This document shows, piece by piece, positions 4,949 to 52,203 of a stretch of DNA of 64,000 nucleotides (its first letter is position 1; each line of letters opens with the position of its first letter). Location: positions 8,164,001 to 8,228,000 of the forward strand of contig NZ_CP017174.1 of NCBI RefSeq assembly GCF_006402735.1, written 5' to 3'. The translations under genes and the position numbers were made by a program. The notes beneath the pieces were generated by a model. That model had not been told where the DNA came from. It did no database searches and was given only the letters and a program-made list of their open reading frames with translations. Source of the DNA: Myxococcus xanthus. GTDB taxonomy: Bacteria; Myxococcota; Myxococcia; Myxococcales; Myxococcaceae.

Positions 4949-5019
4949 CTCGCCGCGCCGAAGCCTCGAGCATCACGGGCTCTCGCGAGAAGGCGAGCCG
5001 CCTCCGCAGCTGAAACACA

Positions 5020-5052
5020 ACGGGCCGCCTCCCTCCCAGGGAAGCGGCCCGT
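5020..5052 (-). terminator. Hairpin terminator, distal to metK
   Basis: A perfect 9-bp stem, ACGGGCCGC (5020-5028) with GCGGCCCGT (5044-5052). Read on the minus strand it is followed by TTGTGTTTC, the most U-rich stretch in this gap, so it probably ends metK transcription. It may also act on ahcY read-through. Confidence 0.6.
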
Positions 5053-5061
5053 GTGCTTGCG

Positions 5062-5095
5062 GGCCCTCACGCGCCGGTGGGGCAGCGTGAGGGCC
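5062..5095 (-). terminator. Hairpin terminator, proximal to metK
   Basis: A perfect 11-bp stem, GGCCCTCACGC (5062-5072) with GCGTGAGGGCC (5085-5095), 18 bases past the metK stop. With the hairpin at 5020-5052 it forms a tandem pair. Confidence 0.55.
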
Positions 5096-5113
5096 GAATC
5101 GAAGCGCCCTGTC

Positions 5114-6304: not shown

Positions 6305-6345
6305 GTCGTCTCAGAGGCTGCGCTGACAGTGCGCGAAGGCCGGAC

Positions 6346-6373
6346 ACTAAACGTGGCGTCCTAGAGGAGTCAA
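6346..6373 (-). promoter_or_regulatory. Predicted housekeeping promoter of metK
   Basis: On the minus strand, TTGACT (complement of 6368-6373), a 16-base spacer and TTTAGT (complement of 6346-6351). Transcription would begin near 6339 and give a leader of about 35 bases, too short for a typical riboswitch. Confidence 0.5.
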
Positions 6374-6542
6374 ACGCGCAAGAGGGCTGCATCATTCAAC
6401 TTTTCGGAATCCGCCAGGGCACAGCGACCAGGCTGCTACGGCCGGATGGCCGCCTCCCGCCCCAGCATGAATTTCGCGAGGCGCCGGACGTTCCCTTGGG
6501 CTAACAGACGTCCGCGCATCCGCTCTGGAGGAACAGCCCGAC

Positions 6543-7118
6543 ATGAACGCCCGCTTCCGTACCCTCGCCTTCCTGGCCACCTTCGCCTTCGCCCTCCCCG
6601 CGCTCGCCGCGAAGGAAGACCCCGTCGCCAAGCCGGTGAAGACCGTGGTGCAGTCCGTGCGCTACGAGCGCGACGCCCTGGCCCTCAAGCACTTCGGCAG
6701 CGCGGAGCAGGGCAAGTTCCTGCTCGGCGATAACTGGGACAAGGGCACCGAGGCGCAGCGCAAGGAGTTCGTCGCGCTGTTCCAGGACCTCTTCGCGAAC
6801 ATCGCCTTCCCCCGCGTGCGGGAGAACTTCAAGAACCTGGACACCATCACCTACGAGCCCTCGCAGGTGCAGGGCGCCGAGGCCACGGTGGCCTCCACCG
6901 TCTTCATCAAGCACCCGCTGAAGACGCAGGAGATGAAGCTCAAGTACCGGCTGGTGAAGGAGGCCGCCGCATGGAAGGTCGTGGACGTGACGGTGCTGGG
7001 CTCGTCCATGCTCCAGGACATCCGGGACACGCAGGTGAAGCCGCTGATGGAGAAGGGCGGCTGGGACCTCCTGCTGGAGCGCATGCGCACGGAGCTGGCG
7101 AAGGTGAAGAAGAAGTAG
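6543..7118 (+). CDS. MlaC/Ttg2D-like periplasmic phospholipid carrier
   Basis: A 191-residue exported protein. Residues 1-22 form a signal peptide ending ALPALAA. The mature part matches the MlaC family: repeated F-rich helices (KEFVALFQDLFANIAFPRV), a beta stretch (EATVASTVFIKH), and WKVVDVTVLGSSMLQDIR, the typical W-K-V-x-D-V segment near residue 145. MlaC proteins shuttle phospholipids between the inner-membrane MlaFEDB complex and the outer membrane. No mlaE, mlaF or mlaD is adjacent, so partners must be encoded elsewhere. The start is ATG 6543, with GGAGGA about 10 bases upstream. A hairpin terminator follows. Confidence 0.85.
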   Translation: MNARFRTLAFLATFAFALPALAAKEDPVAKPVKTVVQSVRYERDALALKHFGSAEQGKFLLGDNWDKGTEAQRKEFVALFQDLFANIAFPRVRENFKNLDTITYEPSQVQGAEATVASTVFIKHPLKTQEMKLKYRLVKEAAAWKVVDVTVLGSSMLQDIRDTQVKPLMEKGGWDLLLERMRTELAKVKKK

Positions 7119-7131
7119 CCCGCCCCCGCCC

Positions 7132-7162
7132 GGCGGCCGGGCCACCAGGCTCCCCGGCCGCC
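7132..7162 (+). terminator. Hairpin terminator of the mlaC-like gene
   Basis: A 10-bp perfect stem, GGCGGCCGGG (7132-7141) with CCCGGCCGCC (7153-7162), followed shortly by TGTTTTCG. It starts 13 bases after the mlaC-like stop. Confidence 0.6.
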
Positions 7163-7221
7163 CCACTGTTTTCGTGGGGTCCGCGCATCGCGTAGAGTCG
7201 CCCCTCCCCCATGCCTGGCCG

Positions 7222-31819: not shown

Positions 31820-32033
31820 CTGGCTTTGAAGCAATGCGTCACGGGGAATGGACTGTCACAGACTTGCAATCACCGGATTCTCGCTGGTACTTTCTTCGCC
31901 ACTCGAAAGAACTCGCGTTCGTTCGCGGCTGCTCCACGCATTTCCGACGCGCCGCAACAGTGAACGGCGACTCCCGAAGCACCCTGGTTTCTTCGCAGTG
32001 AGAACGAAGTCTTCCAGCCGTGGAGGGCAGCGC

Positions 32034-32789
32034 ATGCATCCGAACAAGCGTTTCGCGTGGGCGTGGGTGGCGGCGGGCGTTTTCGCGGTGTCTGGTCTGG
32101 TGGCGGGATGTGACCCTGAAGAGGACCCCACGCCAACGCCTGACGCAGGACAGCAAACCCCGGATTCAGGTACGCAGCCTGACTCAGGCACCCCGCCGGA
32201 CTCTGGTACGCCGCCGGACTCGGGCACGCAGACTGACGCCGGCACGGAGCCGGACGCGGGCACCGAGCCCGACGCCGGTACCGAGGAAGACGCCGGTACC
32301 GTCCCCACGCTGCCGCTGGCCGTGGACGGCACCTGGATTCCCAGCGGCTACATGGGCGACGGCGCGCGGGGCGGCGTCACCTACGACGGCACCGAGTGTC
32401 TGCCTGGGCGGGCGGGTTCGCAGCGGGGAGCCTGCCACAAGTTCACCTGGACGCCTGGTTTAGACGGCTGGGCGGGCGTGTACTGGCAGTATCCGGAAGG
32501 CAACTGGGGAACCCAGCCCGGCTTCAGCGTCCCGGACGGCGCCAACACCGTGTCCTTCTACGCCTGGGGCACGGAGGGCGGCGAAGTCGTCTCCTTCATG
32601 GTGGGGATGAACTCCGCTGACGGTTTCGAGGCGAAAGTCGAGAACGTGGCGCTCACCACCACCCCGACCCAGTACACAATCGACATCAGCCGCGTCCGGT
32701 ATGGACAGGTGGTGGGTGGCTTCGGATGGACCGCTGCTGGGAGGACGACTCCGCTCGTCTTCTTCATCGACGACATCCACTGGCACTGA
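32034..32789 (+). CDS. Lipoprotein with Asp-rich repeats and a carbohydrate-binding-like domain
   Basis: A 251-residue lipoprotein: signal peptide, lipobox LVAGC, then about 60 residues of six-residue repeats (D-S/A-G-T-x-x, acidic and probably extended). The C-terminal 155 residues form a Trp-rich beta domain (TWIPSGYMGDGARGGVTYDG, CHKFTWTPGLDGWAGVYW, YPEGNWGTQPGF, VVFF-like strand and terminal FIDDIHWH). The closing FIDDIxW pattern resembles the end of glycan-binding jelly-roll modules and the C-terminus of the lipoprotein at 45525. GGAGG precedes the ATG at 32034. It is the first gene of the beta-glucan locus, so surface glucan binding is inferred. Confidence 0.75.
   Translation: MHPNKRFAWAWVAAGVFAVSGLVAGCDPEEDPTPTPDAGQQTPDSGTQPDSGTPPDSGTPPDSGTQTDAGTEPDAGTEPDAGTEEDAGTVPTLPLAVDGTWIPSGYMGDGARGGVTYDGTECLPGRAGSQRGACHKFTWTPGLDGWAGVYWQYPEGNWGTQPGFSVPDGANTVSFYAWGTEGGEVVSFMVGMNSADGFEAKVENVALTTTPTQYTIDISRVRYGQVVGGFGWTAAGRTTPLVFFIDDIHWH
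32140..32302 (+). repeat. Tandem short repeats encoding the Asp-Ser/Ala-Gly-Thr linker
   Basis: Degenerate 18-base units encoding D-(S/A)-G-T plus two variable residues, about nine copies, within the lipoprotein gene starting at 32034. Copies near 32185-32225 are almost identical (PPDSGT twice), showing recent unit duplication. Confidence 0.7.
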
Positions 32790-32829: not shown

Positions 32830-34056
32830 ATGCGAGTGGGAACGGCGGTGACGACGGTCGATGCGGCGGGCATGCGCGCGCAGAACAGCAGCCTGCTGCT
32901 CAACATGATCTGGCGCGAGCGCCAGATTTCCCGGGCGGAAATCGCCCGGCGGACGGAGCTGAGTCCGTCGACCGTCTCCGCCATCGTGGCGGACCTGGAG
33001 CGCTCCGGCCTGGTGCGCAGCATTGGCGCCGGCGTGTCCCGGGGCGGCCGTCGCCCCACCCTCATCGGCTTCTGCGATGACGCGTTCAGCCTCATCGGCG
33101 TGGAGATGGGCGCCACCCACGTGACGGCCGCGCTCACCGACCTCCGAGGACGGGTGCGCGCGTACCGGCACGCCAGCCATGCCGTCCGTGAGGACCCCAA
33201 GGGCACGCTCCAGAAGGTGCGCGAGCTGGTCCAGGAGGTCCTGGACGCCGAACGCGTACCGCGCCGCTCTGTGGCAGGCATGGGCATCGCCGTGCCCAGT
33301 CCCGTCCACCCGGCCGCGCCCGGAAAGCTGTCCCCGCTGCTGGTGCCGGCCTGGCGCGACTACGACGTGCAGGAGTCCCTGCGGAGCGCGTTCGGCCTGC
33401 CGGTGTTCGTGGACAACGACGCGAACCTGGGCGCGCTGTCGGAGTGCTACTGGGGCGCGGGCGTCAACGGCGAGGACCTGGCGTACATCAAGCTGGCCAC
33501 GGGCATCGGCTCCGGCCACATCATCCACGGCGACGTCTACCGTGGCGCTGGCGGCACCGCGGGCGAAATCAGCCACATGGCGGTGGACTCCTCCGGCCCG
33601 CAGTGCGTGTGCGGCCTGCGCGGCTGCCTCGTCACGCTCATCGGGTCCGCGGCCCTGCTGGAACGGGCGCGGGAGCTGATGGGCCGCAAGGACAAGCGCG
33701 CCCTCACGGTGCGCGAGCTGGTGGAAGGCGCGCGGGCGGGTGAGCCGGCCGCGCGTCAGGTCATCGACGGGCTCGGGCACTACCTGGGCATCGCCGTGGC
33801 CGGTCTGCTGAACCTGCTCAACCCCGCCATCGTCGTGCTCGGCGGTGAAATCTCGTCGGTGGGAGACCTGCTGCTGGACCCGCTTCGCGCGTCGGTGCGC
33901 AAGCGGGCGCTGTCCACCTCCATGGCGGAGACGCGCATCGTCACCTCCGCGCTGGGAGACCGCGCCATTGCCGTGGGCGCGGCCACCCTGGTGCTCCAGG
34001 CGGCGCTGCGTGACCGAACCCTCTTCCCCCTCCAACACATAGGCAAACCTGCATGA
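32830..34056 (+). CDS. ROK-family transcriptional regulator (NagC/XylR type)
   Basis: A 408-residue regulator. A winged helix-turn-helix lies at about residues 20-80 (SRAEIARRTELSPSTVSAIV). The ROK sugar-kinase-like domain follows, with VFVDNDANLGALSE, LATGIGSGHIIHGDVYRGAG, and the zinc motif starting at the GxxxGEISHM segment and continuing CVCGLRGC. The N-terminal DNA-binding domain marks it as a regulator rather than a glucokinase. It begins the coupled part of the glucan locus: its stop overlaps the GH16 start by 4 bases. By analogy it would repress the locus and be released by a glucan-derived sugar. A GAGAGGA ribosome site precedes ATG 32830. Confidence 0.9.
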   Translation: MRVGTAVTTVDAAGMRAQNSSLLLNMIWRERQISRAEIARRTELSPSTVSAIVADLERSGLVRSIGAGVSRGGRRPTLIGFCDDAFSLIGVEMGATHVTAALTDLRGRVRAYRHASHAVREDPKGTLQKVRELVQEVLDAERVPRRSVAGMGIAVPSPVHPAAPGKLSPLLVPAWRDYDVQESLRSAFGLPVFVDNDANLGALSECYWGAGVNGEDLAYIKLATGIGSGHIIHGDVYRGAGGTAGEISHMAVDSSGPQCVCGLRGCLVTLIGSAALLERARELMGRKDKRALTVRELVEGARAGEPAARQVIDGLGHYLGIAVAGLLNLLNPAIVVLGGEISSVGDLLLDPLRASVRKRALSTSMAETRIVTSALGDRAIAVGAATLVLQAALRDRTLFPLQHIGKPA

Positions 34057-34907
34057 CGCTCCAGCGCCTCCTCCCCGTGGCCCTGGCCCTGACGGGCCTC
34101 GCCTGTGACCCGGCCGCCAACCGGGTGAACCGCCCTGGCACCCCGCCGCCCCTCACCAACCCGCAGCCCAGCACGGACTGGGAGTTGGTGTGGCAGGACG
34201 AGTTCGATGGACCGGAGGGGACGCCGCCCTCACCCGAACGGTGGGTGCACGACGTAGGGGGACACGGCTGGGGGAACGAGCAGCAGGAGTTCAACACCGA
34301 CCGGACCGAGAACACCGCGCATGACGGCGCCGGCAACCTGGTCATCACCGCGCGCCGCGAGCGCTACAACGGCCGGGACTACACCTCCGGGCGCATCCGG
34401 ACGCAGGGCCGCTACGAAACCACGTATGGCCGCATCGAGGCGCGCATCCAGCTGCCCGTGGGCCGCGGCATCTGGCCCGCCTTCTGGATGCTCGGCGCGA
34501 ACATCAACAGCGTCGATTGGCCGGAGTGCGGCGAAATCGACATCATGGAGTACCGGGGCCAGCTGCCGTCCATCCTCCGGGGCTCGCTGCACGGGCCGGG
34601 GTACTCCGCCGGCAACAACCTCGGCCAGGACTACGTCGTCAGCGGCGTCCGGCTGAACGAGGACTTCCACGTCTACGCGGTGGAGTGGGAGCCGAACCGC
34701 ATCCGCTGGTTCCTGGACGGCACCACCTTCTTCGAGGCGACGCCCGCCCAGCTCCCCGAGGGCGCCCGCTGGGTGTTCGACCAGCCCCAATTCATCATCC
34801 TCAACGTCGCGGTGGGTGGAAACTTCGTGGGCCCGGTGGGCCGGGACACGGTGTTCCCGCAGCAGATGAAGGTGGACTACGTCCGCGTCTACGCGAGGCC
34901 CACGTGA
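34053..34907 (+). CDS. GH16 beta-glucanase lipoprotein (laminarinase-like)
   Basis: A 284-residue lipoprotein with lipobox LTGLAC (Cys18). The catalytic motif ECGEIDIMEY has Glu161, Asp163 and Glu166, the E-x-D-x-x-E signature of GH16, with the extra Met seen in beta-1,3- and 1,3(4)-glucanases. WELVWQDEFDGP near the start and IRWFLDGTTFFE plus PQFIILNVAVGGNF near the end complete the jelly-roll. It would cut beta-1,3-glucans at the cell surface into oligosaccharides. The start overlaps the ROK gene stop, and its own stop overlaps the start of the ABC binding protein. Confidence 0.95.
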   Translation: MTLQRLLPVALALTGLACDPAANRVNRPGTPPPLTNPQPSTDWELVWQDEFDGPEGTPPSPERWVHDVGGHGWGNEQQEFNTDRTENTAHDGAGNLVITARRERYNGRDYTSGRIRTQGRYETTYGRIEARIQLPVGRGIWPAFWMLGANINSVDWPECGEIDIMEYRGQLPSILRGSLHGPGYSAGNNLGQDYVVSGVRLNEDFHVYAVEWEPNRIRWFLDGTTFFEATPAQLPEGARWVFDQPQFIILNVAVGGNFVGPVGRDTVFPQQMKVDYVRVYARPT

Positions 34908-36544
34908 GGGTCGCGCTCTGGGCGCTGACACTCCTGCTGGTGGCCTGCAAGGTGGAACCCCGCCCGCGGCCGCCCGGAGTGCTGTTCGTCTCCGTGGAGC
35001 AACAGAGCGCCTGGGTGCGCAACTTCAACCCGCTGTTCGCGGGCGCGGGCTCTCGTTGGCCCACGCGTGCGGGCGTCTACGAGTGCCTTGAAATCTTCAG
35101 CCCCGCGGTGGGCCAGTGGACGCCCTGGCTGGCCACCGGCCACGCGTGGTCCGAGGACCGCCGCACGCTGCGCTTCGCCCTCCGCCCCGGCGTGCGCTGG
35201 TCCGACGGAAGGCCCTTCACCGCGGACGACGTGGCCTTCACCTTCCAGTTGCTCAAACAGCACGCGGCGCTGGACGCGGGCGGCGTGTGGCGCTTCGTGG
35301 AGGACGTGCGCGCGGAGGACGCGCACACGGTGGCCTTCCAATTCTCCCGCATCTACATCCCCGGCTTCGCGGAGCTGGCGCAGCAGCCCATCGTCCCCCG
35401 GCACGTCTGGGAGAAGGTGGCGGACCCGGTGACGTTCACCAACCCGCGGCCGGTGGCCACCGGGCCCTTCACCGAGGTCACCGTCTTCCGCAACCAGGTC
35501 TACGAGCTGGGCCGCAATCCGCACTACTGGCAGCCCGGCAAGCCCGCCGTCTCCGCGCTGCGCTTCCTGGCCTTCCCCACCAATGACCAGGCCAACCTGG
35601 CGCTGGTGGAGGGGGAAGTGGACTGGGCGGGCAACTTTGTCCCCGCCGTGGACCGCACCTTCGTCGCCAGGGACCCGGCGCACCATGGCCGCTGGTTCCC
35701 ACTCTACGGCAGCACCGTCTTCCTCTACCCCAACACCACCCTGCCGCCGCTGGACGACGTGCGCGTGCGCAAGGCGCTGAGCATGGCGCTGGACCGCGAG
35801 CGGCTGGTGGAGATCGCCATGTACGGCTACACGCGGCCGGCGGACGCCACCGCGCTCAACGACGCGTACGCCGCGTGGCGCGACGCGGACGCGGCCCAGG
35901 GTGCTTGGGTGAAGCACGACCTGGAGGCGGCGAAGCGGCTGCTGGACGAGGCGGGCTTGAAGGAAGGTCCAGACGGGCTGAGGCGCAAGGCGGATGGCCA
36001 GCCGCTCGCGCTGGACATCGAGGTGGTGGGCGGCTGGTCCGACTGGGTGCGCGCCGGGCAGGTGGTCGCGAGGGACTTGCGGAAGCTGGGCGTGCAGGCG
36101 CAATTGCGCACCTACGAGTTCGGCGCGTGGTACGCGCGGCTCCAGAAGGGCGAGTTCCAGCTGGCCATCTCCTGGTCCCTGGACGGCCCCACGCCGTACA
36201 CCTTCTACAAGTGGCAGCTGTCCCCGCGCACCGTGCGCCCGGTGGGCGAGGTGGCCGCGTCCAACTGGCACCGCTTCGGCGATGAGGAAGCAGACGAGCT
36301 GCTGACGCGCTTCGAGCGCACAGACGCCGAGGACGAGCAGCGCGCGCTGATGGCGGCGGTGCAGCGGCGCTACTCCGAGCTGGCGCCGTCCATCCCCCTC
36401 TTCCCCAACCCGTCCTGGGGCGAGTCCAACTCGCGGCGCTTCACCGGCTTTCCCACCGAGCAGAACCCCTACGCGCGCCTGTCCCCCCATGCCGAGCCCG
36501 ACAGCCTGCTGGTGCTGACGTCGCTCGCCCCGCGGGAGCCCTGA
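34904..36544 (+). CDS. ABC importer solute-binding lipoprotein, family 5
   Basis: A 546-residue lipoprotein. The start is the GTG at 34904, overlapping the GH16 stop; it gives a short signal peptide with lipobox LLVAC. The mature part is the oligopeptide-type fold: LATGHAWSEDRRTLRFALRP, DGRPFTADDVAFTFQLLKQH, VRKALSMALDRERLVEIAMY and the C-terminal NPSWGESNSRRFTGFP. Some members of this family (CbtA/BglE types in thermophiles) bind cello- or beta-gluco-oligosaccharides rather than peptides. The neighbours, GH16, GH1 and a GH-A enzyme, favour beta-gluco-oligosaccharides here. Confidence 0.9.
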   Translation: MRVALWALTLLLVACKVEPRPRPPGVLFVSVEQQSAWVRNFNPLFAGAGSRWPTRAGVYECLEIFSPAVGQWTPWLATGHAWSEDRRTLRFALRPGVRWSDGRPFTADDVAFTFQLLKQHAALDAGGVWRFVEDVRAEDAHTVAFQFSRIYIPGFAELAQQPIVPRHVWEKVADPVTFTNPRPVATGPFTEVTVFRNQVYELGRNPHYWQPGKPAVSALRFLAFPTNDQANLALVEGEVDWAGNFVPAVDRTFVARDPAHHGRWFPLYGSTVFLYPNTTLPPLDDVRVRKALSMALDRERLVEIAMYGYTRPADATALNDAYAAWRDADAAQGAWVKHDLEAAKRLLDEAGLKEGPDGLRRKADGQPLALDIEVVGGWSDWVRAGQVVARDLRKLGVQAQLRTYEFGAWYARLQKGEFQLAISWSLDGPTPYTFYKWQLSPRTVRPVGEVAASNWHRFGDEEADELLTRFERTDAEDEQRALMAAVQRRYSELAPSIPLFPNPSWGESNSRRFTGFPTEQNPYARLSPHAEPDSLLVLTSLAPREP

Positions 36545-36549: not shown

Positions 36550-37530
36550 ATGGCCTACGTCCTGCGGAGGTTGGGCTTCTACCTGCTGGCGGCCTGGGCG
36601 TCGCTGACGCTCAACTTCGTCATCCCCCGGCTGGCGCCCGGCGACCCGGCGTCCGCCATGTTCGCGCGCTTCGAGGGCCGCGTGCAGCCCGAGGCCATGG
36701 TGGCGCTGCGTGCCGCCTTCGGCTTCACGGAGGCCCCCTGGTACGTGCAGTACGCCACGTACCTGAAGCACCTGCTGCGCGGCGATTTGGGCCTGTCCTA
36801 CGCGTACTACCCCGCGCGCGTGTCCGAGGTGATTGGCACCGGCCTGCTGTGGACGCTGGGGCTGGCCGGGTGCGCGGTCATCATCAGCTTCACGCTGGGC
36901 TCCATGCTGGGCGTGCTGGCCGCGTGGAACCGCGGCGGGTGGCTGGACGCGACGGTGGCCCCGGCGCTCGCCTTCCTGGGGGCCTTCCCCTACTTCTGGC
37001 TGGCCATGCTGGCCCTGTACCTCTTCGGGTTCGGGCTCGGCTGGTTCCCGCTGCGGCACGCGTACTCGCACGACCTGGAGCCGGCGCTGTCCTTCACCTT
37101 CGCGGCGGACGTGGCGCGGCACGCCTTCCTGCCCGCGGCCTCCATCGTCGTGGCCACGCTGGGCGGGTGGATGCTGAGCATGCGCAACACCATGGTGGCC
37201 ACGCTGGGCACGGACACACTCCGGCTGGCGCACGCGAAGGGACTGCCGCCCCGGCAGGTGATGCTGCGCTACGCCGCGCGCAACGCGCTTTTGCCCAATG
37301 TCACTGGCTTCGGCATGGCGCTGGGCTTCGTGCTGAGCGGCTCGCTGCTGACGGAGATTGTCTTCTCGTACCCGGGCACCGGCTACCTGCTCATCCTGGC
37401 CGTGCGCAACCAGGACTACCCCCTGATGCAGGGGCTCTTCCTGACCATCACCTTCGCCGTGCTCGCCGCGAACTTCGCCGTGGACCTGCTGTGTCTGTGG
37501 CTGGACCCGAGGACCCGCGCCCATGCGTGA
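36550..37530 (+). CDS. ABC importer permease (DppB/OppB type)
   Basis: A 326-residue inner-membrane permease with about six helices. The N-terminus RRLGFYLLAAWASLTLNFVI is typical of the first permease of oligopeptide-type importers. The EAA-type loop DTLRLAHAKGLPPRQVMLRY lies near residue 220, and GSLLTEIVFSYPGTGYLL follows. It begins 5 bases after the binding-protein stop and overlaps the next gene by 8 bases. Confidence 0.92.
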   Translation: MAYVLRRLGFYLLAAWASLTLNFVIPRLAPGDPASAMFARFEGRVQPEAMVALRAAFGFTEAPWYVQYATYLKHLLRGDLGLSYAYYPARVSEVIGTGLLWTLGLAGCAVIISFTLGSMLGVLAAWNRGGWLDATVAPALAFLGAFPYFWLAMLALYLFGFGLGWFPLRHAYSHDLEPALSFTFAADVARHAFLPAASIVVATLGGWMLSMRNTMVATLGTDTLRLAHAKGLPPRQVMLRYAARNALLPNVTGFGMALGFVLSGSLLTEIVFSYPGTGYLLILAVRNQDYPLMQGLFLTITFAVLAANFAVDLLCLWLDPRTRAHA

Positions 37531-39283
37531 CCTTCTTCGACGGCTGCTGCGCCAACGCAAGGCGGCGGTGGGCGTGAGCATTCTGCTGGGCTTCATCGTG
37601 CTCGCGCTCCTCGGGCCCTGGCTGGTGATGGACCCCACGGAGCTGGTGGGCCGTCCCCACCAGCCACCCTCCTCCGCGCACTGGTTCGGCACCACGGGCC
37701 AGGGGCAGGACGTGCTGGCGCAGACGGTGGTGGGCGCGCGTGAGACGCTGGCCATCGGCTTCGCGGTGGGCGCGCTCGTCACGCTCATGGGCGCGCTCAT
37801 CGGCGTGACGTCCGGGTACCTGGGCCGCCGCGTGGATGACGTGCTGACGCTCACCACCAACGTCTTCCTCGTCATCCCCGGCCTGCCGCTGGCCATCGTC
37901 CTGGGCGCCTACCTGCCCTCCGGCCCCTTCCGCATGGTGGTGGTGCTGTCGCTGGCCGGCTGGGCCTGGAACGCGCGCGTCTTCCGCGCCGAGGCCATGG
38001 CCCTGCGCAACCGGGACTTCGTCTCCGCCGCGTTCGTCGCGGGGGAGAGCCGCTCGCGCATCGTCGTCCGGGAGCTGCTGCCCAACATGGCGTCGCTGCT
38101 GGGCTCGTCGTTCATCGGCAACACGCTCTACGCGGTGGGCGCGCAGGTGGGCCTGGAGTTCCTCGGCCTGGGCGACGTGGGCGCGGTGACGTGGGGCACC
38201 AACCTCTACTGGGCCGGCAACGACGCGGCGCTGCTGACGCGCTCCTGGTGGGTCTTCGTGCCCACCGGTCTGTGCATCGCGCTGGTCGGCTTCTCGCTGA
38301 CGCTGCTCAGCTCCGCCATCGACGAGGTGACCAACCCGGCACTGAAGGCGCCTCCGGTGGCGACCACCGCCGTGCGCACGACGCGGTCCTCCTCGGCGGA
38401 CGCGGCGCCGCCGTCCGGCGCCCTGCTGAGCATCCGGGACGTGTGCATCGAGTACGCCACGGAGCGTGGGCCCGCGCGGGTGGTGGACTCGGTGTCCTTC
38501 GACATCGCGCCCGGTGAGGTGTTCGGACTTGCGGGTGAGTCCGGCAGCGGCAAGTCGACGCTGGGCTACGCGCTGCTGCGCCTGCTGCCTCCGGCCGCCA
38601 GCATCACGCAGGGCCGCATCATCCTGGATGGCACGGACGTCACCGCGCTGGATGAAACCGCGCTGCGCGCGTACCGCTGGAGCCAGGTGTCCATGGTCTT
38701 CCAGAGCGCGATGAGCGCGCTCAACCCGGTGCTCACGCTGGGGGACCAGTTCCACGACACCCTCGCCGCCCATGGGCGGACCACCCGCGCCGCGGCCCAT
38801 GCGCGCGCGCGGGAGCTGCTGGCCATGGTGGGGCTGGCGCCTCAGTTGGTGGACGCGTGGCCGCACCAGCTCTCCGGTGGCATGCGGCAGCGCGTGGGCA
38901 TCGCCCTGGCGCTGGCCCTGGAGCCGAAGCTGGTGGTGATGGACGAGCCCACCACGGCGCTGGACGTCGTGGTGCAGAAGGAGCTGCTCCAGCGTGTGCT
39001 GGAGCTGAAGCAGCGGCTGGGCTTCGCGGTGCTCTTCATCACCCATGACCTGCCACTGCTGCTCGCGCTGTCGGACCGCGTCGGCGTCCTCCAGGGTGGC
39101 AAGCTGGTGGAGGTGGACACCGCCGAGCGCCTGCGCACGGAGGCACGCCACCCGTACACGCGCCTGCTGCTGTCCTCCTTCCCTCACCTGAGCGCGGCGG
39201 ACGCGCTGGTGCCGGCGGACGTGACGCTGGCGGGCTCGGAGCGCACGGTGGCCCAGGCCGCGGCGCAGGGGGGTGGACGATGA
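37523..39283 (+). CDS. ABC importer permease-ATPase fusion (DppC-DppD)
   Basis: A 586-residue fusion. Residues 1-275 are the second permease (LLGFIVLALLGPWLVMDP; SAHWFGTTGQGQDVLAQTV; the coupling loop RDFVSAAFVAGESRSRIVVR). A polar linker at about 276-300 (PPVATTAVRTTRSSSADAAP) leads to a full ATPase at about 300-560: Walker A GESGSGKST, Q-loop, signature LSGGMRQR, Walker B LVVMDEPTTALD and switch His in ITHDLPL. The two parts are normally separate genes. The fusion fixes one permease to one ATPase; the second ATPase is separate at 39405. The stop overlaps a 42-codon frame that bridges to it. A frameshift artefact is unlikely, as the linker is in frame and the codon bias is even. Confidence 0.9.
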   Translation: MRDLLRRLLRQRKAAVGVSILLGFIVLALLGPWLVMDPTELVGRPHQPPSSAHWFGTTGQGQDVLAQTVVGARETLAIGFAVGALVTLMGALIGVTSGYLGRRVDDVLTLTTNVFLVIPGLPLAIVLGAYLPSGPFRMVVVLSLAGWAWNARVFRAEAMALRNRDFVSAAFVAGESRSRIVVRELLPNMASLLGSSFIGNTLYAVGAQVGLEFLGLGDVGAVTWGTNLYWAGNDAALLTRSWWVFVPTGLCIALVGFSLTLLSSAIDEVTNPALKAPPVATTAVRTTRSSSADAAPPSGALLSIRDVCIEYATERGPARVVDSVSFDIAPGEVFGLAGESGSGKSTLGYALLRLLPPAASITQGRIILDGTDVTALDETALRAYRWSQVSMVFQSAMSALNPVLTLGDQFHDTLAAHGRTTRAAAHARARELLAMVGLAPQLVDAWPHQLSGGMRQRVGIALALALEPKLVVMDEPTTALDVVVQKELLQRVLELKQRLGFAVLFITHDLPLLLALSDRVGVLQGGKLVEVDTAERLRTEARHPYTRLLLSSFPHLSAADALVPADVTLAGSERTVAQAAAQGGGR

Positions 39284-39408
39284 AACGGCTCGCCATGCCA
39301 GCCAACCTGCCGCTGAGCGCGACCGGTGCCCAACGGGCAACGCGCCTGACGCTGGCGCCCACCCTGCGCGCCTCGGCGACCGACGCTCACCTGGAAGGTG
39401 GCCGATGA
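39280..39408 (+). CDS. Possible 42-residue bridging ORF between the ABC ATPase genes
   Basis: ATG at 39280 overlaps the upstream fusion stop by four bases (ATGA), and its own TGA at 39406-39408 overlaps the start of the next ATPase gene, again as ATGA. The product begins MKRLAMPANLPLSATGAQ and has no recognised domain or membrane helix. About three quarters of its codons end in G or C, somewhat less biased than its neighbours. It may be a real small protein, or a translated spacer that couples the two ATPase genes. Confidence 0.4.
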   Translation: MKRLAMPANLPLSATGAQRATRLTLAPTLRASATDAHLEGGR

Positions 39409-40380
39409 GCGCCCCGCTGCTGGAGGCCACGGAGCTGCTGCGCACGGTGCCCGTGGGCGGCTTCCTCTCCCGTTCGCGCCGCACCTTGCTCAACCGCGTG
39501 TCCTTCACCTTGGAGCGCGGAGAAATCGTCGCGCTGGTGGGCGAGTCCGGCAGCGGCAAGTCCACCCTGGCCCGGGTGCTGGCGCGGCTGGACACGCCGG
39601 ATGCCGGCAGCCTGCGGCTGGGCGGCGAGGACGTGCTCACCCTGGAGCGCGGCGGCGCATCGCTCGCGTACCGGGGCCGCGTGCAGATGGTCTTCCAAGA
39701 CCCCTTCGCCTCACTCAACCCCGTCCACACCGTGGCCCATCACCTGGAGCGCCCGCTGCTGCGCCATGGCCGGGCTACACGCGCCGGACTCAAGGACCGC
39801 GTCCACGCCCTGCTGGAGTCCGTGGGCCTGACGCCCGCGGAGCAGTTGGCGCGGCGCTACCCGCATGAGCTGTCCGGCGGCCAGCGGCAACGCGTGGCCG
39901 TGGCGCGCGCGCTGGCCGTGGAGCCGGACGTCATCATCGCGGACGAGCCCACCTCCATGCTGGACGTGTCCACGCGCCGGGGCGTGCTCCAACTGCTACG
40001 CGGTCTGACGCGCGAGCGCGGCATCGGCATCCTCTTCATCACCCACGACCTGGCCAGCGCGCGCCACCTGGCCGACCGCGTCCTGGTGCTGTACGCGGGC
40101 AGCGTCGTGGAGTCCGGCAGGACAGCGGACGTACTCGCCGCGCCCCGGCACCCATACACCCGGCTGCTCCTGTCCGCCGTGCCGGATGGCGCGGACTTCC
40201 TCAACACCCCGCTGCCGGTGCGGCCCGCCACGGGCCCCATGCCGGTGTTCGGCTGTCCCTTCGCGCCCCGCTGTCCCCATGCGGACGCGCGCTGCCACGA
40301 CACCCTCCCCCCCTCTCACGTCCACGGCGCGGCCCACACGGTCCGCTGCCATCTCGAATCCTCGAAAGGAGCCTCCGACA

Positions 40381-40400
<20 letters not shown>
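39405..40400 (+). CDS. ABC importer ATPase (DppF/OppF type)
   Basis: A 331-residue ATPase: Walker A GESGSGKST near 48, Q-loop VFQDPFASLNP near 103, signature LSGGQRQRV near 152, Walker B VIIADEPTSMLDVS near 173 and switch His in ITHDLASA near 208. The C-terminal oligopeptide/dipeptide module is present with its cysteine set (FGCPFAPRCPHADARCHDT), which in relatives can bind an iron-sulphur cluster. The start ATG 39405 has AAGG upstream. It overlaps the GH1 gene by 20 bases. Confidence 0.92.
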
Positions 40401-41747
<1,347 letters not shown>

Positions 41748-41751
<4 letters not shown>

Positions 41752-44700
41752 ACGCCCTCGTCCTCGTCACCAGCCTCGCGCTCACACTGGGTCAGGTGCC
41801 GCCGCCCAGCGGGCCGGAGACGCCCCCGCCTCCGTCGGACGCGCCGGTGGTGCGGGTGTCCCCCGTCACCGTCAACGCGGCGGCGCAGGCGGTCCGCGTC
41901 CACCAGGACGAGCGCGGCTTCAAACTCCAGGTCAACGGCCGGGACTTCCCCATCCTCGGCATGAACTGGGGCTACACGCCCATTGGAGAGAACTACCGGT
42001 ACTCGCTGTGGACGCAGAAGGAGGACTTCATCCGCGCGGTGCTGCACCGCGAGATGACGCTGCTGCGCGACATGGGCGTCAACGCCATCCGGCAGTTCGA
42101 CGACATCCCGCCGCAGTGGGTGACGTACATCCACAAGAACTACGGCATCTACACCGTGGTGAACCCGCTGATGGGCCGCTACGGCACGAACGTGGACGGC
42201 GTCATGGTGCCGAACACGGACTACTCCAACCCGAACCACCGCCGCGCGCTGCTCAACGACCTGGCGCAGAAGGTGGAGAAGTACCGGGACGTGCCCGGCG
42301 TGCTGATGTGGATGCTGGGCAACGAGAACAACTACGGCCTGCACTGGACCAGCTTCGAAATCGAGGCGCTGCCCGGTCAGGAGGACACCGCCCGCGCGGA
42401 GCACCTCTACTCGCTGATGGGCGAGGCGGTCCGGACCATCAAGAAGCGCGACACGCTGCACCCCGTCTCCATCGCCAACGGTGACCTCCAGTACATCGAC
42501 CTCATCGCGCGGCTGATGCCCGAATTGGACATCCTGGGCTCCAACGTCTACCGCGGCCCCTCCGCCCGTGACTTGTTCGACGAGGTGCTGCGCAAGCTGA
42601 ACAAGCCCGTCATGTTCACCGAGTTCGGCGCGGACGCCTACGACGCCAAGGCCGGCCGCGAGGACCACCTGGCGCAGGCCGAATACCTGCGCAAGCAGTG
42701 GGAGGAAATCTACTCCCAGGCCTACGGACAGGGCCGCGCGCAGAACGCCCTGGGCGGCTTCGTGTTCCAGTGGGTGGACGGCTGGTGGAAGTACAACCAG
42801 GAGGCCAACCTCTCCATCCACGACACCACCGCGTCCTGGCCCAACGGCGGATACGAATCCGACTTCGTGCCGGGCCAGAACAACATGAACGAGGAGTGGT
42901 TCGGCATCTGCGCGCTGGGCCCCGAGGACGAGGCCGGCATCGCGCGCATCCAACCGCGCACCGCGTACTACGTCCTCCAGGCGGCCTTCCGCATGGACCC
43001 GTACGCCCCCACCACCACCCCCGACACCATCCGCGAGCACTTCGCGTCCATCCGCCCCACGGAGATGTCACGCGGCTATGAGTCGTCCATCGCGCTGGCC
43101 CGGGCGGATGACCTCAGCGCGGTGCGCGTCTCCAACCTGCGCCTGATGATGGACAGCTCGCTGTCGCGCGGGAGCATCGCCACGGTGCGGCCCAACCAGG
43201 TGGCCGCGGACCACACGGAGTCTGTCTTCTTCGACCTTGCGCTCCAGCCGACCTCGGGCGTGTACGGGCGCGCCTCGTTCAACGTCGTGGGCAACGTGGC
43301 GCAGAACCGCCTCAACAACATCTTCTATGAGAACCGCGGCACGCCCCCCGCGCCCGCCACGGCCAACGGCGGCGCGGGCCAGGCCCCCGTACCCGGCGTG
43401 GGCAACCCGGCGGGACAGCAACCGCTCGGCCTGGACCGGCTCGCGCTGTACCAGGCCGAGTTCAAGCTGGACCGCGCGGACTTCCAACTCGAGGGCTTCT
43501 ACCGCACCGCCCACTACCACTGGGGCGAGGAGGGCGACTTCTTCGGCCTGTACCGTGAGGCGAACTACGGCCCCGCGCTGGACATCTACAAGGGCAACGC
43601 CCCCTTCGGCGTCGTCTTCACCGGGAAGAACAACCTGGAGGGCCTCAAGGTGGCGGTGGGCCCGGAGCTCTACTGGGGTGCCAACCCGTCCATCGTCGCC
43701 AAGTACCGGCGGAACGTGGGGCCGGTGACGCTGACGCTGATGCACCAGGAGGACATCGCCCGGGGCTCCACCCAGCTCACCGCCTCGGTCATCCGTGAGC
43801 GCGTGGCGCGCAGGTCGACGCTGTCGCTCGGCTGGACGAAGGGGCCCATGGCGCTGGAGGTGGGCGGCATCCTCGCGGCCCCGCAGCGCGTGGGCGAGGA
43901 GTTCACCTGGTCTCGCCCCACGGACGGCCCCAGCTATCTCAACAGCGGCTACGAAGTGATGCGGGATGAAATCCGGATGCTCGACACCCTGGGTGCCAAG
44001 GCACGCCTCACCTATGACCTGGGCGCGGTGCGCACGTTCATCCAGGGTTCCTACCGCGGTCTGGTGGCGGACGGCGGTCCGGAGCAGGGCATCCTGCTGA
44101 CGGGCTGGAGCCTGCGCGAGAGCGGCCGTGGCAACCACTTCGGCGGACAGGCCGGCGCGGTGGTGCAGGTCGGCAGCGCGTTCCAGGTGTCGCCCAACCT
44201 GCTGTACCAGAAGCCCCTCATCGGGCCCAACCCACGCATCGAGGACGCGTTCGACCCGGAGTCGGGGCGGTACTTCGCCGGCGTGCGTCCGCGCAACGTG
44301 CTGGTGGATGCCTTCACCGTCCTGGACAACCGCGAGACGCTGGGCGCCGAGCTGCTCCTCACCTTCGACCCCACGCCCGGCACCTGGTTCTGGCAGTGGG
44401 ACCGCGACATGCGCGAGGACGCGCCCTTCGCCGCGGGTCTGGACCTGGTGTACCGGCGACAACCAACATCTCGCGACGCGGGCATCGCCATCCTCGCGGA
44501 CGGCAGCATGGTGGCCTTCGGCAACGCGCCGTCCGCCCGGGACGAATGGGAGGCCACGCTGCGAGTGGTGACCAACCCGATGCAGCGGCTGAAAATCTTC
44601 GGCGCCGCCTTCGCCGGCAGCAACCAGTCCTCCGGCGAGGACAACCGGCAGGTGAGGCGCTTCGGCGTGGATGCCTCCGTGTTGTGGGACACGCTGATGC

Positions 44701-44963
44701 TGACCACCCAGCTCCACTTCAACAACTGGGGCCCGTACGACTACCACCGCGTCTTCAACCTCACCTACCCCATCCAGCTCGGCGGAGACCTGTCCTACGG
44801 CCTCAAGCGTCCGGTGATGGGAACGGTGACGACGCGCTTCGGCCTGCGCGGCCTGGTGCGCATGCTGGACCAGTACTCGGAAGGACTCAGTGCGACGGCG
44901 CTCGACCAGGGACTCGAAGGCCGCGAATTCGAGGTGGGCGCGTATGCCATCCTGTCTCTCTAA
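41748..44963 (+). CDS. Clan GH-A glycosidase fused to a beta-barrel-like C-terminal region
   Basis: A 1071-residue exported protein. The GTG at 41748 (overlapping the GH1 stop) gives a signal peptide of about 16 residues. Residues 55-460 look like a TIM-barrel glycosidase close to GH2/GH5-type enzymes: VNGRDFPILGMNWGYTPI, an acid/base Glu193 in MLGNENNYG, and a nucleophile Glu292 in VMFTEFGADAY. Residues about 480-1071 are different: alternating polar and hydrophobic strands with many aromatics and turns (LYQAEFKLDRADFQLEGFYR, LTLMHQEDIARGSTQL, TLRVVTNPMQRLKIFGAAF, FNLTYPIQLGGDLSYGL), like an outer-membrane barrel, ending GAYAILSL. A barrel would fix the enzyme to the outer membrane and might pass products inward. 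The glycan is unproven; the context says beta-glucan. Confidence 0.75.
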
Positions 44964-44973: not shown

Positions 44974-45528
44974 ATGAAGACGTGGCTTCTGCTGGCCTGC
45001 GCCGGAGTCGTCACCGGCTGCTACGACCCCGCCAGCTTCGTGTATGGCGAATCCCTGGACGGGCTCACGCTCCAGTTCCACAGCCCGGACGTCGGCATCT
45101 ACCCGGACCAGTCCGTGCTGGACGACCCGAACAATCCGTTCCGAAGCAGCACGCCCGGCACGGAGACGAAGTGGGACATCGAATCCCGCGCCGGCAACGT
45201 GGCCGCGTTCTATTCGTGGGCCACGTTGCTGGCCCGCGAGCCGGGCGGCGAGGCCCAGTTCTACGTGGGCAACAACCTGCTCGCCATCTACCAGAACGGT
45301 GAGGCGCGTCAGGAGGACCTGCCGCAGGTGCGGCTCCAGGCCATCCGCGCGTACCAGACGATGCTCGATTCCTTCCCGGACGCGGTGACGTACGACGCCA
45401 CGGGCACCTACGCCTACGACCTGGCGACGCCCGCGTACAAGGGCATCGTGGAGATGGGGGGCGCGGTGCAAGGCGGTTGGGTGCTGATGAGCACGGCTGG
45501 CGGCGGAGACCGGGCGGTGCGGCCATGA
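44974..45528 (+). CDS. Lipoprotein of the glucan locus
   Basis: A 184-residue lipoprotein with lipobox VVTGC (Cys16) and no recognised domain. The mature part contains LQFHSPDVGIYPDQSVLDDP, YSWATLLAREPGGEAQFYVG and helical RLQAIRAYQTMLDSFPDAVT. GGAGG lies 4 bases before ATG 44974, and the gene follows the large glycosidase by 10 bases. It overlaps the next lipoprotein by 4 bases. Its fixed position suggests an accessory role, perhaps with the barrel-bearing glycosidase. Confidence 0.75.
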   Translation: MKTWLLLACAGVVTGCYDPASFVYGESLDGLTLQFHSPDVGIYPDQSVLDDPNNPFRSSTPGTETKWDIESRAGNVAAFYSWATLLAREPGGEAQFYVGNNLLAIYQNGEARQEDLPQVRLQAIRAYQTMLDSFPDAVTYDATGTYAYDLATPAYKGIVEMGGAVQGGWVLMSTAGGGDRAVRP

Positions 45529-46169
45529 GGCGCGCGGGCTTCGCGGTGCTCCTGCTCGTGGCGAGCTGCCGTCCCGACCCGGGCGTGCCGGACTACACGG
45601 ACCAGGGCTACAACCGGCCCGACGCGGGCGGGGGACCCAACGACGAGGCGCTCCCGGGCCCCTACCCCTATGTGGAGGGCCAGCGGCGCCTGGGCGTGGG
45701 CTTCTACGAGGGGGGCCGCTCCCAGGACATCCCGGTGGACAACACCACCGTGCACATCTACCTCTACGAGGGCACCCTCTCCCTGGAGCCGTCCACCACG
45801 CGCATCGAGGGCCGACAGGCCGACCTGGTGGTGCACGCGGGCAAGACGTGGCTGGGCTTCGGCGTGCACTGGAGCACGCCGCGCAACCTGGATGGATGGA
45901 CGACGCTGCACGTGAGCCTCAACTCGGCCGACCCGGGCTTCGCCAACGTGTCCATTGGCATGAACGACGACCAGAGCGTCCAACTCCCCGCGTCACGATA
46001 CGGTTACGCGAATGACGGGCAGTGGCACCACCTGGCCATTCCGCTGGCGGACTTCGTCGCGGGCGGGTTGCAGCTCAACGCGGTGCAGGCGCCGTTTGTC
46101 TTCATCGCCGGCGCGGGTCCGGCCGCGGACACGCTCCTGCTCGACAACGTGTATTTCACCGCGGACTGA
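45525..46169 (+). CDS. Lipoprotein with a carbohydrate-binding-like beta domain
   Basis: A 214-residue lipoprotein, lipobox LVASC (Cys15). A Pro/Gly/Asp-rich linker is followed by a beta-sandwich-like domain from about residue 50: TVHIYLYEGTLSLEP, KTWLGFGVHWSTPRNLDGWT, LHVSLNSADPGFANVSIGMN, YANDGQWHHLAIPLADF and the terminal TLLLDNVYFTAD. The DGQWHHLxIPLxDF and LDNVYF patterns are typical of glycan-binding jelly-roll modules. It is the last gene of the glucan locus and is followed by a terminator. Surface capture of glucan is inferred. Confidence 0.78.
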   Translation: MRRAGFAVLLLVASCRPDPGVPDYTDQGYNRPDAGGGPNDEALPGPYPYVEGQRRLGVGFYEGGRSQDIPVDNTTVHIYLYEGTLSLEPSTTRIEGRQADLVVHAGKTWLGFGVHWSTPRNLDGWTTLHVSLNSADPGFANVSIGMNDDQSVQLPASRYGYANDGQWHHLAIPLADFVAGGLQLNAVQAPFVFIAGAGPAADTLLLDNVYFTAD

Positions 46170-49413: not shown

Positions 49414-52203
49414 CTAGCGGCGCCTCCGCTGCTGGGGACGGGCGGGCTTCGTCTTCGCCTCCGGAGGCAGCGCCTCCAACCAGGCCCGCACCGCTTCGGC
49501 CTGGAGCGTCCGGCCCGAGGCCGTGAAGCGCTCACGCGCCTTCGCCGCCTCGGTCCGCGCTTCCGCGCCCTGCCCTTCCTTCCACAGCGCCCGCGCGAGC
49601 GCGAAGCCCGACTCCCCCAGCGAGTCCTCCTGCGCATCCGTGAAGGCCACCGCCTTGCGCAGTGGCACCAGGGCTTCGCGCGTGCGCCCCAGTCCCAGCA
49701 GGGCCTGCCCCACGCCGTCGTAGGAGTACTGGAGGTCCTCGTCGTCGGGCTCCAACTGGGCGCGCTTCACCGCCAGCGCCGCCTCGTAGACCTTCAGCGC
49801 CTCTTCATTACGCCCCAGCGCGAGCAGGCTCATGCCCTCCTCGTCGAGCGCCTCAGCCAGCTTCAGGTGACTGTCGCCCAGCAACTCACGGTGCAGCGCC
49901 ACGGAGGCCCGGGCATGCGCCAAGGCCCGCGCGAACTCCCGCTGCTCACGCAGCGCCATGGACAAGCCCTGGTGACGCCGGGCCACGTCCAGGTGCCGAG
50001 GCCCCACCGCCGCCTCCGTCTGGCGCAGCGCCTCCTCCATCACCCGCGCGGCCTCCGGGAAGGCCCCCACCTCCAGCAGCACCCGCCCCAGTGAGAACGT
50101 CACCCGCGCACGCTTCGGATGACCCGGCACCAGCGCGTCCGCCAGCACGGCGTTGGCCTCCTCCAGCAACGCCCGGGCGTCTGCTGTCTGTCCGCGCATC
50201 AACGCGAGGTTGGCTTCGTTCACCAACAGGTCGCCTTGCAGCACCGCGTCCCCGCCCAGCCGCTGGAGGGTCGCCTTGCCCAGACGTGCCCATTGCGAGG
50301 CGTGCTCGAAGCGCTCGCGCTCCCCCTCCACATAGAGCAACTTGTTGAGAATGGAGACCTCCAGCCGGTCCGTCCGTCCCGACGTGGCGTCATAGACGGC
50401 CTGCTCCAGCAGCCCCGCGCCCTTCTCCTTCTCCCCCAGCACGGCCTGGAGCCACCCCTGGTGGAAGCGCAGCTCCGCCGTCAGCGGCGCGTACCGCGCG
50501 GCCAGCACCCGCGACTCCACCGCGTTCGCCGCCGCCAGCGCCTGGGGATAGCGGCTGGTGTCCACCAGCGCCTTCACCTCCGACAACGCGCCTTCCAATG
50601 ACTCCAGCTCCGCGCGCATGGCCGGATCCGCGGGCCGGGGCTGCTGGCTCGCCAGGGCCTCCACGTCCGCGCAGTCCTCGGGCGAGGGCAGCGCATACGC
50701 CGCGTCCAGCGCCTTCTCCACGCCCGCCTTGTCCACCTGGGCCAGAGCGCCCACCAGCGCGCGCAAGTCCTTGTGCCGCCGCTCCAGACACACCACGCGC
50801 TGGGTGAACAGCGCCTCCGGCTGCACCTCGTGCAGGCGCGTGGCCTCGCACGCGTCGGTGCGCTGCCGCGCCCAACGGCTGGCATAGGCATCCAACACCT
50901 GCCCTACCCGGCCCGCCATATCCCCCGCCAGCGGGCTGCCCGTGGCCGCGAAGGCCGAGGACAGCCGCTGCCTCGCCGCGGGCCCCCAGCTGTCCGCCAA
51001 TAACCCCTCCGCGCCCGCGCAGACGTTGGACTGAAACCACAGCCCGCCTCCCACCGCGCCCACCAGCGCCGCCGTGGCCACGGCCATGCCTCCCGCCTTG
51101 CGGGCCCGTGCGCGCTGCTGCTCTTGCGACAGCGCCTCCAGCAGCGCCCCCATGGAGGCGAAGCGCGCCTCCGGCGCCAGCGACAACCCTCGCATCACCG
51201 CGCGCCGTACCCAGGCGGGGACACGGGCGTCGCTCGGCGGCTCGTGGATGGGCGAGGGCTCCCGCCCGGCTCGCTCCAGCGGCGCCGTCACCTTCGCGGG
51301 TGCGGACCGCAGCGCCTTCGCGGCCCGCGAGAGCTCGTCAGGGTCAAAGGGACGCTGGTTGTAGAGCGCCCGGTACAGCGCCGCGCAGAAGCTGAACTGG
51401 TCCGAGCGCGCGTCCAGGGACTCGCCGCGAAACTGTTCGGGGGACATGAACGGCGGCGTGCCCAGGACGACGCCCGTTTCGGTGAGCGGGTCATGCAGCG
51501 GGCGCGACGCCTCCGAGGCGGCGCGCACGCGCGCCAGCGTGGGCTGTTCGTCCAGGGGCAGGTTGTCCACGGGGCGCGCCAGGCCGAAGTCGGTGACGCA
51601 GACGCGGCCGTCACGCCCCACCAGCACGTTGGCGGGCTTGAAGTCGCGGTGCACCAGCCCGGCCGCGTGCGCGGCCTCCAACCCTCGTCCCGCTTGCAGG
51701 TACTTCTCCAGCACCTCGCGCCAGGAACGGGGCTTCTCCCGTCGCCAGTCCGCCAGCGTGCCACCGGCCACCAACTCCATGGTGAAGAAGACCTGCGCGT
51801 CCCAGGTGCCCACCTCGTAGATGGGAATGACATTGGGATGGGAGACACGCGCCATGGCCTGCGCCTCGCGCAGCAGCCGGGCACGCCCGCCCTCCTCGTC
51901 CGCGGAGCGGGCCTCCACGCTCAACAACTTGAGCGCCACCTTGCGGTCCAGGTCCGGGTCATAGGCCGCGAACACCGCGCCCATGCCGCCCTGCCCCAGC
52001 AGCTTCAACGGAATGAAGCGCCCCACCCGCTGGCCCAGCGGGCTCCGCGAGCGCCAATCCCCAGCCGCGTCGCGCGCGGAGGGAGGCTCCGCCGTATGCG
52101 GCGCGCTGCGCGGCACCGCCCCCTGCACATCCGCTGACACGACCTGCGTGGACAGCTCTGGCGAATCATCAGCACCCGAGCCCCGGTCATCGGTGTTGGC
52201 CAT
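49414..52203 (-). CDS. Ser/Thr protein kinase with TPR sensor region
   Basis: A 929-residue kinase. An acidic/polar N-terminal tail (1-55) precedes the kinase domain (about 60-360): GQGGMG (70-75), Lys92 in VALKLL, HRDFKPANVL (185-194), DFG (205-207) and PPFMSPEQF. One membrane helix lies at about 371-391 (GGMAVATAALVGAVGGGLWF). The outer part (about 400-910) has Cys-containing helices and then TPR-like repeats (HLDVARRHQGLSMALREQRE; KLAEALDEEGMSLLALGRNE; DLQYSYDGVGQALLGLGRTR). The tail is basic (KTKPARPQQRRRR). This is a common myxobacterial design in which the TPR part would sense or recruit ligands. It is divergent from the C39-like gene. Confidence 0.92.
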   Translation of the reverse strand: MANTDDRGSGADDSPELSTQVVSADVQGAVPRSAPHTAEPPSARDAAGDWRSRSPLGQRVGRFIPLKLLGQGGMGAVFAAYDPDLDRKVALKLLSVEARSADEEGGRARLLREAQAMARVSHPNVIPIYEVGTWDAQVFFTMELVAGGTLADWRREKPRSWREVLEKYLQAGRGLEAAHAAGLVHRDFKPANVLVGRDGRVCVTDFGLARPVDNLPLDEQPTLARVRAASEASRPLHDPLTETGVVLGTPPFMSPEQFRGESLDARSDQFSFCAALYRALYNQRPFDPDELSRAAKALRSAPAKVTAPLERAGREPSPIHEPPSDARVPAWVRRAVMRGLSLAPEARFASMGALLEALSQEQQRARARKAGGMAVATAALVGAVGGGLWFQSNVCAGAEGLLADSWGPAARQRLSSAFAATGSPLAGDMAGRVGQVLDAYASRWARQRTDACEATRLHEVQPEALFTQRVVCLERRHKDLRALVGALAQVDKAGVEKALDAAYALPSPEDCADVEALASQQPRPADPAMRAELESLEGALSEVKALVDTSRYPQALAAANAVESRVLAARYAPLTAELRFHQGWLQAVLGEKEKGAGLLEQAVYDATSGRTDRLEVSILNKLLYVEGERERFEHASQWARLGKATLQRLGGDAVLQGDLLVNEANLALMRGQTADARALLEEANAVLADALVPGHPKRARVTFSLGRVLLEVGAFPEAARVMEEALRQTEAAVGPRHLDVARRHQGLSMALREQREFARALAHARASVALHRELLGDSHLKLAEALDEEGMSLLALGRNEEALKVYEAALAVKRAQLEPDDEDLQYSYDGVGQALLGLGRTREALVPLRKAVAFTDAQEDSLGESGFALARALWKEGQGAEARTEAAKARERFTASGRTLQAEAVRAWLEALPPEAKTKPARPQQRRRR

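Follow-up and report, generated by a model that had tools for sequence, protein, structure and literature searches.

Gene content of the locus

The window, a 64,000-nucleotide stretch of Myxococcus xanthus DNA, holds a run of genes that all lie on the plus strand. It opens with a ROK regulator (32830..34056), followed by a GH16 glucanase with a leader that is lipoprotein-like by eye (34053..34907), a family 5 solute-binding protein (SBP5, 34907..36544), with a chitooligosaccharide-binding protein among its closest relatives of solved structure, an ABC permease (36550..37530), an ABC permease fused to an ATPase (37523..39283), an ABC ATPase (39405..40400) and a GH1 glycosidase (40381..41751), presumably cytoplasmic and devoid of a leader by eye. 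The gene under study comes next (41748..44963). Two lipoprotein-like genes close the run: the product of the first (44974..45528) is small and has no Pfam family, while that of the second (45522..46169) exhibits a weak match to Exop_C (galactose-binding-like) below the Pfam cut-off; their clusters are found in 25 and 21, respectively, of 80 sources, the window counting as one besides the 79 loci. The part of the run from the ROK gene to the GH1 gene precedes the gene under study in 17 of the 17 Myxococcaceae stretches examined, drawn from 37 other genomes with full-length matches of at least 74%. To note, a lipoprotein-like gene at 31848-32789, between the ROK gene and a TonB-dependent receptor gene (29752-31761, plus strand), has a relative in 15 of these 17 stretches and may encode a glycan-binding protein. 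On the minus strand, a gene at 49414-52203 reads as serine/threonine kinase-like from its sequence.

The gene under study is one intact open reading frame encoding 1071 residues (118.8 kDa), with a GTG start and a TAA stop. Its start overlaps the TGA stop of the GH1 gene within the motif GTGA, a sign of translational coupling. Since the frame is open without interruption from 41748 to 44963, a pair of distinct genes is ruled out for the window, as is a frame error. From its N- to its C-terminus, the product is composed of a leader that by eye is likely a Sec signal peptide, with a proline-rich stretch (41748..41879, pLDDT below 50); a glycosidase domain (residues 45-413, 41880..42986); a linker that is helical in the structure models (residues 414-458, 42987..43121); and a predicted outer-membrane β-barrel (residues 459-1071, 43122..44960). 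Pfam detects a weak GH2-type domain but leaves the other ~650 residues without a match, and the family is thus easily overlooked.

The whole fusion is conserved, with 42-97% identity across 63 homologues. These were aligned with the window to give 64 rows and represent 63 of 79 loci, the other 16 having been set aside as nearly identical copies, as truncated at a contig end or, in the case of L051, as interrupted by a stop codon inside the fusion range. Such full-length conservation excludes chance as the source of the architecture. The divergence of the two halves is also correlated, with an r of 0.92 across 2016 pairs that are not independent. The AlphaFold model of the full-length protein has a pLDDT of 80.0 and a pTM of only 0.59, and hence does not predict the position of the enzyme relative to the barrel. 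The earlier note had proposed a glycosidase fused to a barrel of its own; full-length conservation, the enzyme and barrel models and the VIA structure matches bear this out, and a clan GH-A glycosidase and an outer-membrane β-barrel are almost certainly combined in one protein, as modelled.

Across the 79 loci, tblastn (1e-5) detects GH16 near the fusion in 70, GH149 in 38, GH17 in 33 and GH30 in 20, the GH149 assignment being secure (1512 bits to PDB 6hq6). GH1 or GH3 enzymes and a sugar importer are also among the neighbours; the importer is of the SBP5-type ABC kind in Myxococcota and of the MFS kind in some others. In Corallococcus loci, a gene downstream of the fusion (L045:12505-16998) encodes a large GH3 protein that contains F5/8 type C domains. 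The degrading enzymes and importer surrounding the fusion mark a β-1,3-glucan catabolic locus, resembling the GH149-containing β-1,3-glucan loci described in PMC5827456, and a role of the fusion gene in β-1,3-glucan use is very probable.

The glycosidase domain

The assignment of residues 45-413 to a clan GH-A TIM-barrel glycosidase draws on Pfam, a profile match and the structure model, in which stretches 200-209 and 348-351 have low confidence. The Pfam match is to Glyco_hydro_2_C (PF02836) at residues 98-302 (25.9 bits, cut-off 21), and it recurs in the fusions of L066 and L065. GH2 enzymes typically carry N-terminal sugar-binding and Ig-like domains. Membership of GH2 beyond the TIM domain was rejected, as neither of these domains is matched by Pfam and the TIM barrel starts at about residue 45-69. 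With the 64-row alignment as profile, the nearest solved sequences belong to GH158, at the distance of a remote tie (6pal, 2.6e-8; 9oro, 1.8e-6).

Eight TIM strands are modelled between residues 69 and 339, by our own strand assignment from the model. E193 (codon 42324..42326) is located just past the fourth strand and E292 (codon 42621..42623) on the seventh, the positions expected of clan GH-A. E193, the putative acid/base, aligns with the GNE motif of BuGH158, and E292 is the putative nucleophile. N192, E193 and E292 are identical in 64 of 64 rows, so that the catalytic glutamates of clan GH-A proposed in the earlier note are found throughout the alignment. Their partners in 6pal are 83 residues apart, the same spacing as between E137 and E220 of BuGH158, catalytic residues whose mutation abolished activity (PMC7157763). 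The positions of the catalytic Asn-Glu pair and of the second Glu are thus shared with BuGH158.

Structure comparison of the enzyme domain gives GH157 (Z 27.6, 316 residues aligned, rmsd 3.2) and GH158 (Z 27.4, 283 residues aligned, rmsd 3.1). These two families top both fold lists, and some of their structures contain bound laminari-oligosaccharides. Human β-glucuronidase follows less than one Z unit below the best match, and the fold alone therefore does not set the substrate. By profile, the enzyme half is closest to the endo-β-1,3-glucanase family GH158, and this activity is predicted for it.

The barrel domain

The β-barrel is predicted from models, fold matches and residue alternation. 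Folded alone, residues 415-1071 yield a pLDDT of 84.6, a pTM of 0.80 and ~26 strands; a few modelled strands are only seven residues long, and the number is hence given as 24-26. No Pfam family matches this region at E 0.1, and no Plug domain is matched by Pfam in the fusion, unlike in TonB-dependent receptors or SusC. The hydrophobic alternation of the strands reaches 2.55, versus 1.38 ± 0.20 in shuffled sequences, and 0 of 2000 shuffles attain this value. L, F, V, A, Y and I abound at the positions facing the lipid, while pore-side positions are polar. The latter are also more conserved (0.681 versus 0.594; Mann-Whitney p 2e-4, indicative only, as the sides were assigned by hydrophobicity and the rows are related).

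In the VIA comparison, all 50 of the 50 matches listed are membrane barrels, among them FimD/PapC usher pores, Occ porins, AlgE, LptD and PelB. The best is an usher pore (Z 14.4, 356 residues aligned, at a loose rmsd of 6.6), whose alignment runs from the first to the last strand of the barrel; 405 residues align with LptD. A family's absence from the VIA and Foldseek lists excludes nothing. Together, the barrel models and fold matches rule out a C-terminal half made of soluble modules: the structure prediction that the earlier note had put forward as a check gives a membrane barrel rather than soluble β-sandwich modules only. The classical outer-membrane assembly signal is a C-terminal aromatic residue, and barrels without an aromatic end exist. 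Among the rows shown, the last residue of the fusion is L for the window and the majority of myxobacterial rows, whereas most flavobacterial rows terminate with IGK.

Orientation and loops

Outer-membrane barrels usually pair long outer loops with short inner turns. If strand 1 rises from the periplasm, the outer loops of the fusion have a mean of 20.2 residues and the inner turns of 5.5; the strand number is even. The N-terminal domain of ushers is periplasmic. The loop-length pattern and the even strand number would place both ends of the barrel, and hence the enzyme, in the periplasm, unless the enzyme is threaded through the pore. In the models, the enzyme domain is thus likely periplasmic, its passage through the pore to the outside being conceivable. 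The earlier note had the protein tied to the cell surface; this finds no support, as both the loop lengths and the usher pore alignment put the barrel ends in the periplasm.

The outer loops of such barrels are usually variable. Here, they are nearly as conserved as the enzyme (0.69 versus 0.72). Conservation reaches 0.84 in loop 586-619 (43503..43604), 0.92 in loop 995-1005 (44730..44762) and 0.94 in loop 641-647, against the 0.72 of the enzyme domain, while loops 476-485 (0.48) and 1041-1057 (0.49) are poorly conserved. The conserved loops may line the path of the substrate.

Distribution and stability of the fusion

At E 0.001, 58 of the order's 145 genomes have matches to the fusion protein, some of which cover the GH domain only, at 31-36% identity. 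Of 195 genomes in the window's phylum, 51 contain the barrel profile (E 1e-5), as do 42 of 199 genomes of the family of a Flavobacterium aquatile genome (G195; E 1e-20). A contig scan uncovered 189 coding stretches; 80 of them, representing 79 loci, were retained for analysis. By record title, they belong to Myxococcota, Flavobacteriia and other Bacteroidota, Gemmatimonadetes, Latescibacterota, Eisenbacteria and Zixibacteriota, with several MAGs. Two titles are questionable: the fusion of L049, from a record titled Comamonas sp. KCTC 72670, is 90-94% identical to that of the window and the name is probably wrong, and L100, from a MAG titled Bifidobacterium breve, harbors a flavobacterium-like locus and is probably misbinned.

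A frame of at least 1033 residues surrounds the barrel in 49 of the 51 genomes of the phylum and in 38 of the 42 of the flavobacterial family. Among the exceptions, contig ends cut G184, G356 and both pieces of G272, which end at the edge, and the pieces of G068, which start at positions 1 and 3. The others are G313, where the copy is broken, and G271, whose frame is interrupted near residue 280; in these, the enzyme and barrel parts share a contig. The G271 locus (L151, ~4683-7828, minus strand), where GH16 and the cluster 2 gene adjoin the fusion, may reflect recent decay or an assembly error. No barrel without enzyme was seen in these 51 and 42 genomes where the contig was long enough. The GH domain also occurs alone, without the barrel. 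Judged from the sequences, the fusion is old and stable.

TonB and SusC receptors near the fusion

The TonB-dependent receptor gene of the window is located 10 kb upstream of the fusion and probably does not belong to its operon. Of the 79 loci, 2 have a TonB plug nearby, and the window contains one; in 51 of these loci, each flank spans 7 kb or more. Among 34 unlabelled neighbour ORFs of at least 550 residues, 10 were scanned with Pfam, revealing two TonB receptors, and the rest with a home-made plug profile only; this profile recovered those two and the receptor of the window, the only known positives tried. In Myxococcaceae, a TonB receptor is present within ~16 kb in 6 of 17 stretches, with matches starting 11.9-16.1 kb upstream, and this low count and varying distance rule it out as a part of the operon. 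In 20 further Flavobacteriaceae stretches, of which L152 repeats the L066 locus, a SusC-type receptor is encoded upstream in 7, while GH16 and the cluster 2 surface protein are each found in 20 and GH149 in 17. As SusC lies beside the fusion in some loci and is absent from others, replacement of SusC can hold for a part of the family only, and, given the receptors near some loci, the fusion need not be the sole entry route.

Comparison with known systems

No description of the fusion architecture was found in the open-licence literature, where absence proves little. The earlier note's author knew of no characterised enzyme of this form, and the search agrees, the nearest cases being an MFS-GH17 fusion and GluM. 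The former, FbGH17b of Formosa, likewise joins a transporter to a glucanase within a single protein of laminarin loci, but its transporter is a helical MFS of the inner membrane and its enzyme belongs to GH17 and follows the last helix, as described in PMC6246565. GluM, a β-1,6-glucanase of Corallococcus described as an outer-membrane β-barrel (PMC10800785, PMC10971235), is likened to the fusion by description only; if it belonged to the same family, the novelty would fall. GH158 (BuGH158, GH158(Pro)) and GH157 (LaGH157) have the TIM barrel and the β-1,3-glucan locus in common with the fusion, while their solved chains of 404-537 residues lack a membrane barrel. The pairs PgaA/PgaB and PelA/PelB also associate a hydrolase with an outer-membrane sugar porin, but as separate proteins and for export, according to the sources cited for export below. 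SusC/SusD ensure outer-membrane glycan uptake, sometimes in the same locus, but SusC possesses a TonB plug that the fusion lacks.

Members of the family may already be present, under other names, in published laminarin loci. Those of Muricauda are reported to comprise LuxR, a 'GH2 β-glycosidase', GH16, GH149, GH17, GH30_1 and MFS (PMC13188888). The loci of highly expressed MAGs include the order GH149-GH0-GH17-GH16_3-GH30_1; in one of these MAGs, GH0 ranks among the top 10% by expression, and a laminarin locus of an NS4 MAG is presented as lacking susCD (PMC10108472). GH0 designates unclassified enzymes (PMC11573768). Gene order and the GH2_C match suggest that these 'GH0' and 'GH2 β-glycosidase' proteins may be the fusion family.

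Proposed mechanism and alternatives

Taken together, the data are best explained by an outer-membrane enzyme-pore for β-1,3-glucans, with a periplasmic glucanase at the exit of the channel, a joint reading for which our confidence is evenly balanced. We infer for it the periplasmic side, the inward flow, the substrate, the activity and the coupling. A GH16 enzyme would first shorten the polysaccharide outside the cell. The 24-26-strand barrel would serve as a large channel, the glucan being recognised by its outer loops and by its lining, and the N-terminal GH158-like endo-glucanase, held at its periplasmic mouth, would cut the chains as they emerge, preventing them from slipping back. The fragments would then pass to the inner-membrane importer (SBP5-type ABC or MFS) and be finished by GH1, GH3, GH30, GH17 or a GH149 phosphorylase. 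The leader of the window's fusion, without a basic residue, and the non-aromatic C-terminus of the barrel in the window and most homologues shown count against this explanation. That the modelled barrel is a conduit for sugar is fairly probable: the earlier note had it that sugars might be fed through it, and the locus content, the conserved pore-side residues and the outer loops make this plausible. A more tentative extension, which we hold to be rather doubtful, is TonB-independent import driven by hydrolysis, in which cutting at the inner mouth would make uptake one-way without inner-membrane energy.

The barrel might instead be an anchor or a local funnel for a surface glucanase, the GH domain being passed outside in an autotransporter-like manner or lying above the barrel. 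In autotransporters, a helix is found just before the first strand, and the type Va translocator is formed by the 12 C-terminal strands. The model of the fusion indeed has a helix (437-456) directly before the first barrel strand, but ~26 strands are predicted instead of 12, and the loop lengths put the N-terminal end of the barrel in the periplasm. The GH16 and GH158 enzymes of a Bacteroides locus are called predicted cell-surface enzymes in PMC7157763, and the SusC found in 7 of 20 Flavobacteriaceae loci would be compatible with a surface enzyme; a mere anchor, however, would not require conserved outer loops and pore-side residues. We consider this surface arrangement unlikely. The reverse direction of transport, in which a PgaA/PgaB- or PelA/PelB-like porin and hydrolase would trim an outgoing polymer, has precedents in periplasmic hydrolases acting with an outer-membrane porin (PMC9384988, PMC5933820, PMC12022489), and the structures closest in fold to the barrel include AlgE and PelB. 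The neighbouring genes, however, encode importers and degrading enzymes, and no glycosyltransferase 2 (PF00535), the synthase family searched for, was found in the window, all 22 of its places in the genome lying elsewhere, which makes export or editing very improbable.

A different question is whether the enzyme acts on β-1,6 branches or as a transglycosylase within the same kind of locus, which would be compatible with either location. In a locus of this type, GH30_1 and one GH17 enzyme are reported to have these activities (PMC13188888). The GH-A fold permits many activities, as the rank of human β-glucuronidase illustrates, and the tie to GH158 is distant. Against this, the best sequence matches are to GH158 and both fold lists are led by GH158 or GH157, in part with ligands bound; we view a branch-cutting or transglycosylating enzyme as possible, if on the unlikely side.

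Possible implications for glucan uptake

β-1,3-Glucan is a main component of fungal walls. Laminarin-type β-1,3-glucans represent a very large marine carbon flow (PMC6246565). A part of the Bacteroidetes GH149 clusters is described as lacking a SusCD importer (PMC5827456), which leaves open the outer-membrane uptake step of these degrading clusters, and the fusion family is a candidate for this step. If hydrolysis-driven import were true, SusCD would be joined by a further principle of outer-membrane uptake, found in laminarin-degrading loci over several phyla, as judged by record titles. The fusion, which predatory myxobacteria have in common with many flavobacteria, is encoded among genes for β-1,3-glucan consumption, and this setting suggests that the cutting and the uptake of glucan are combined in a single machine.
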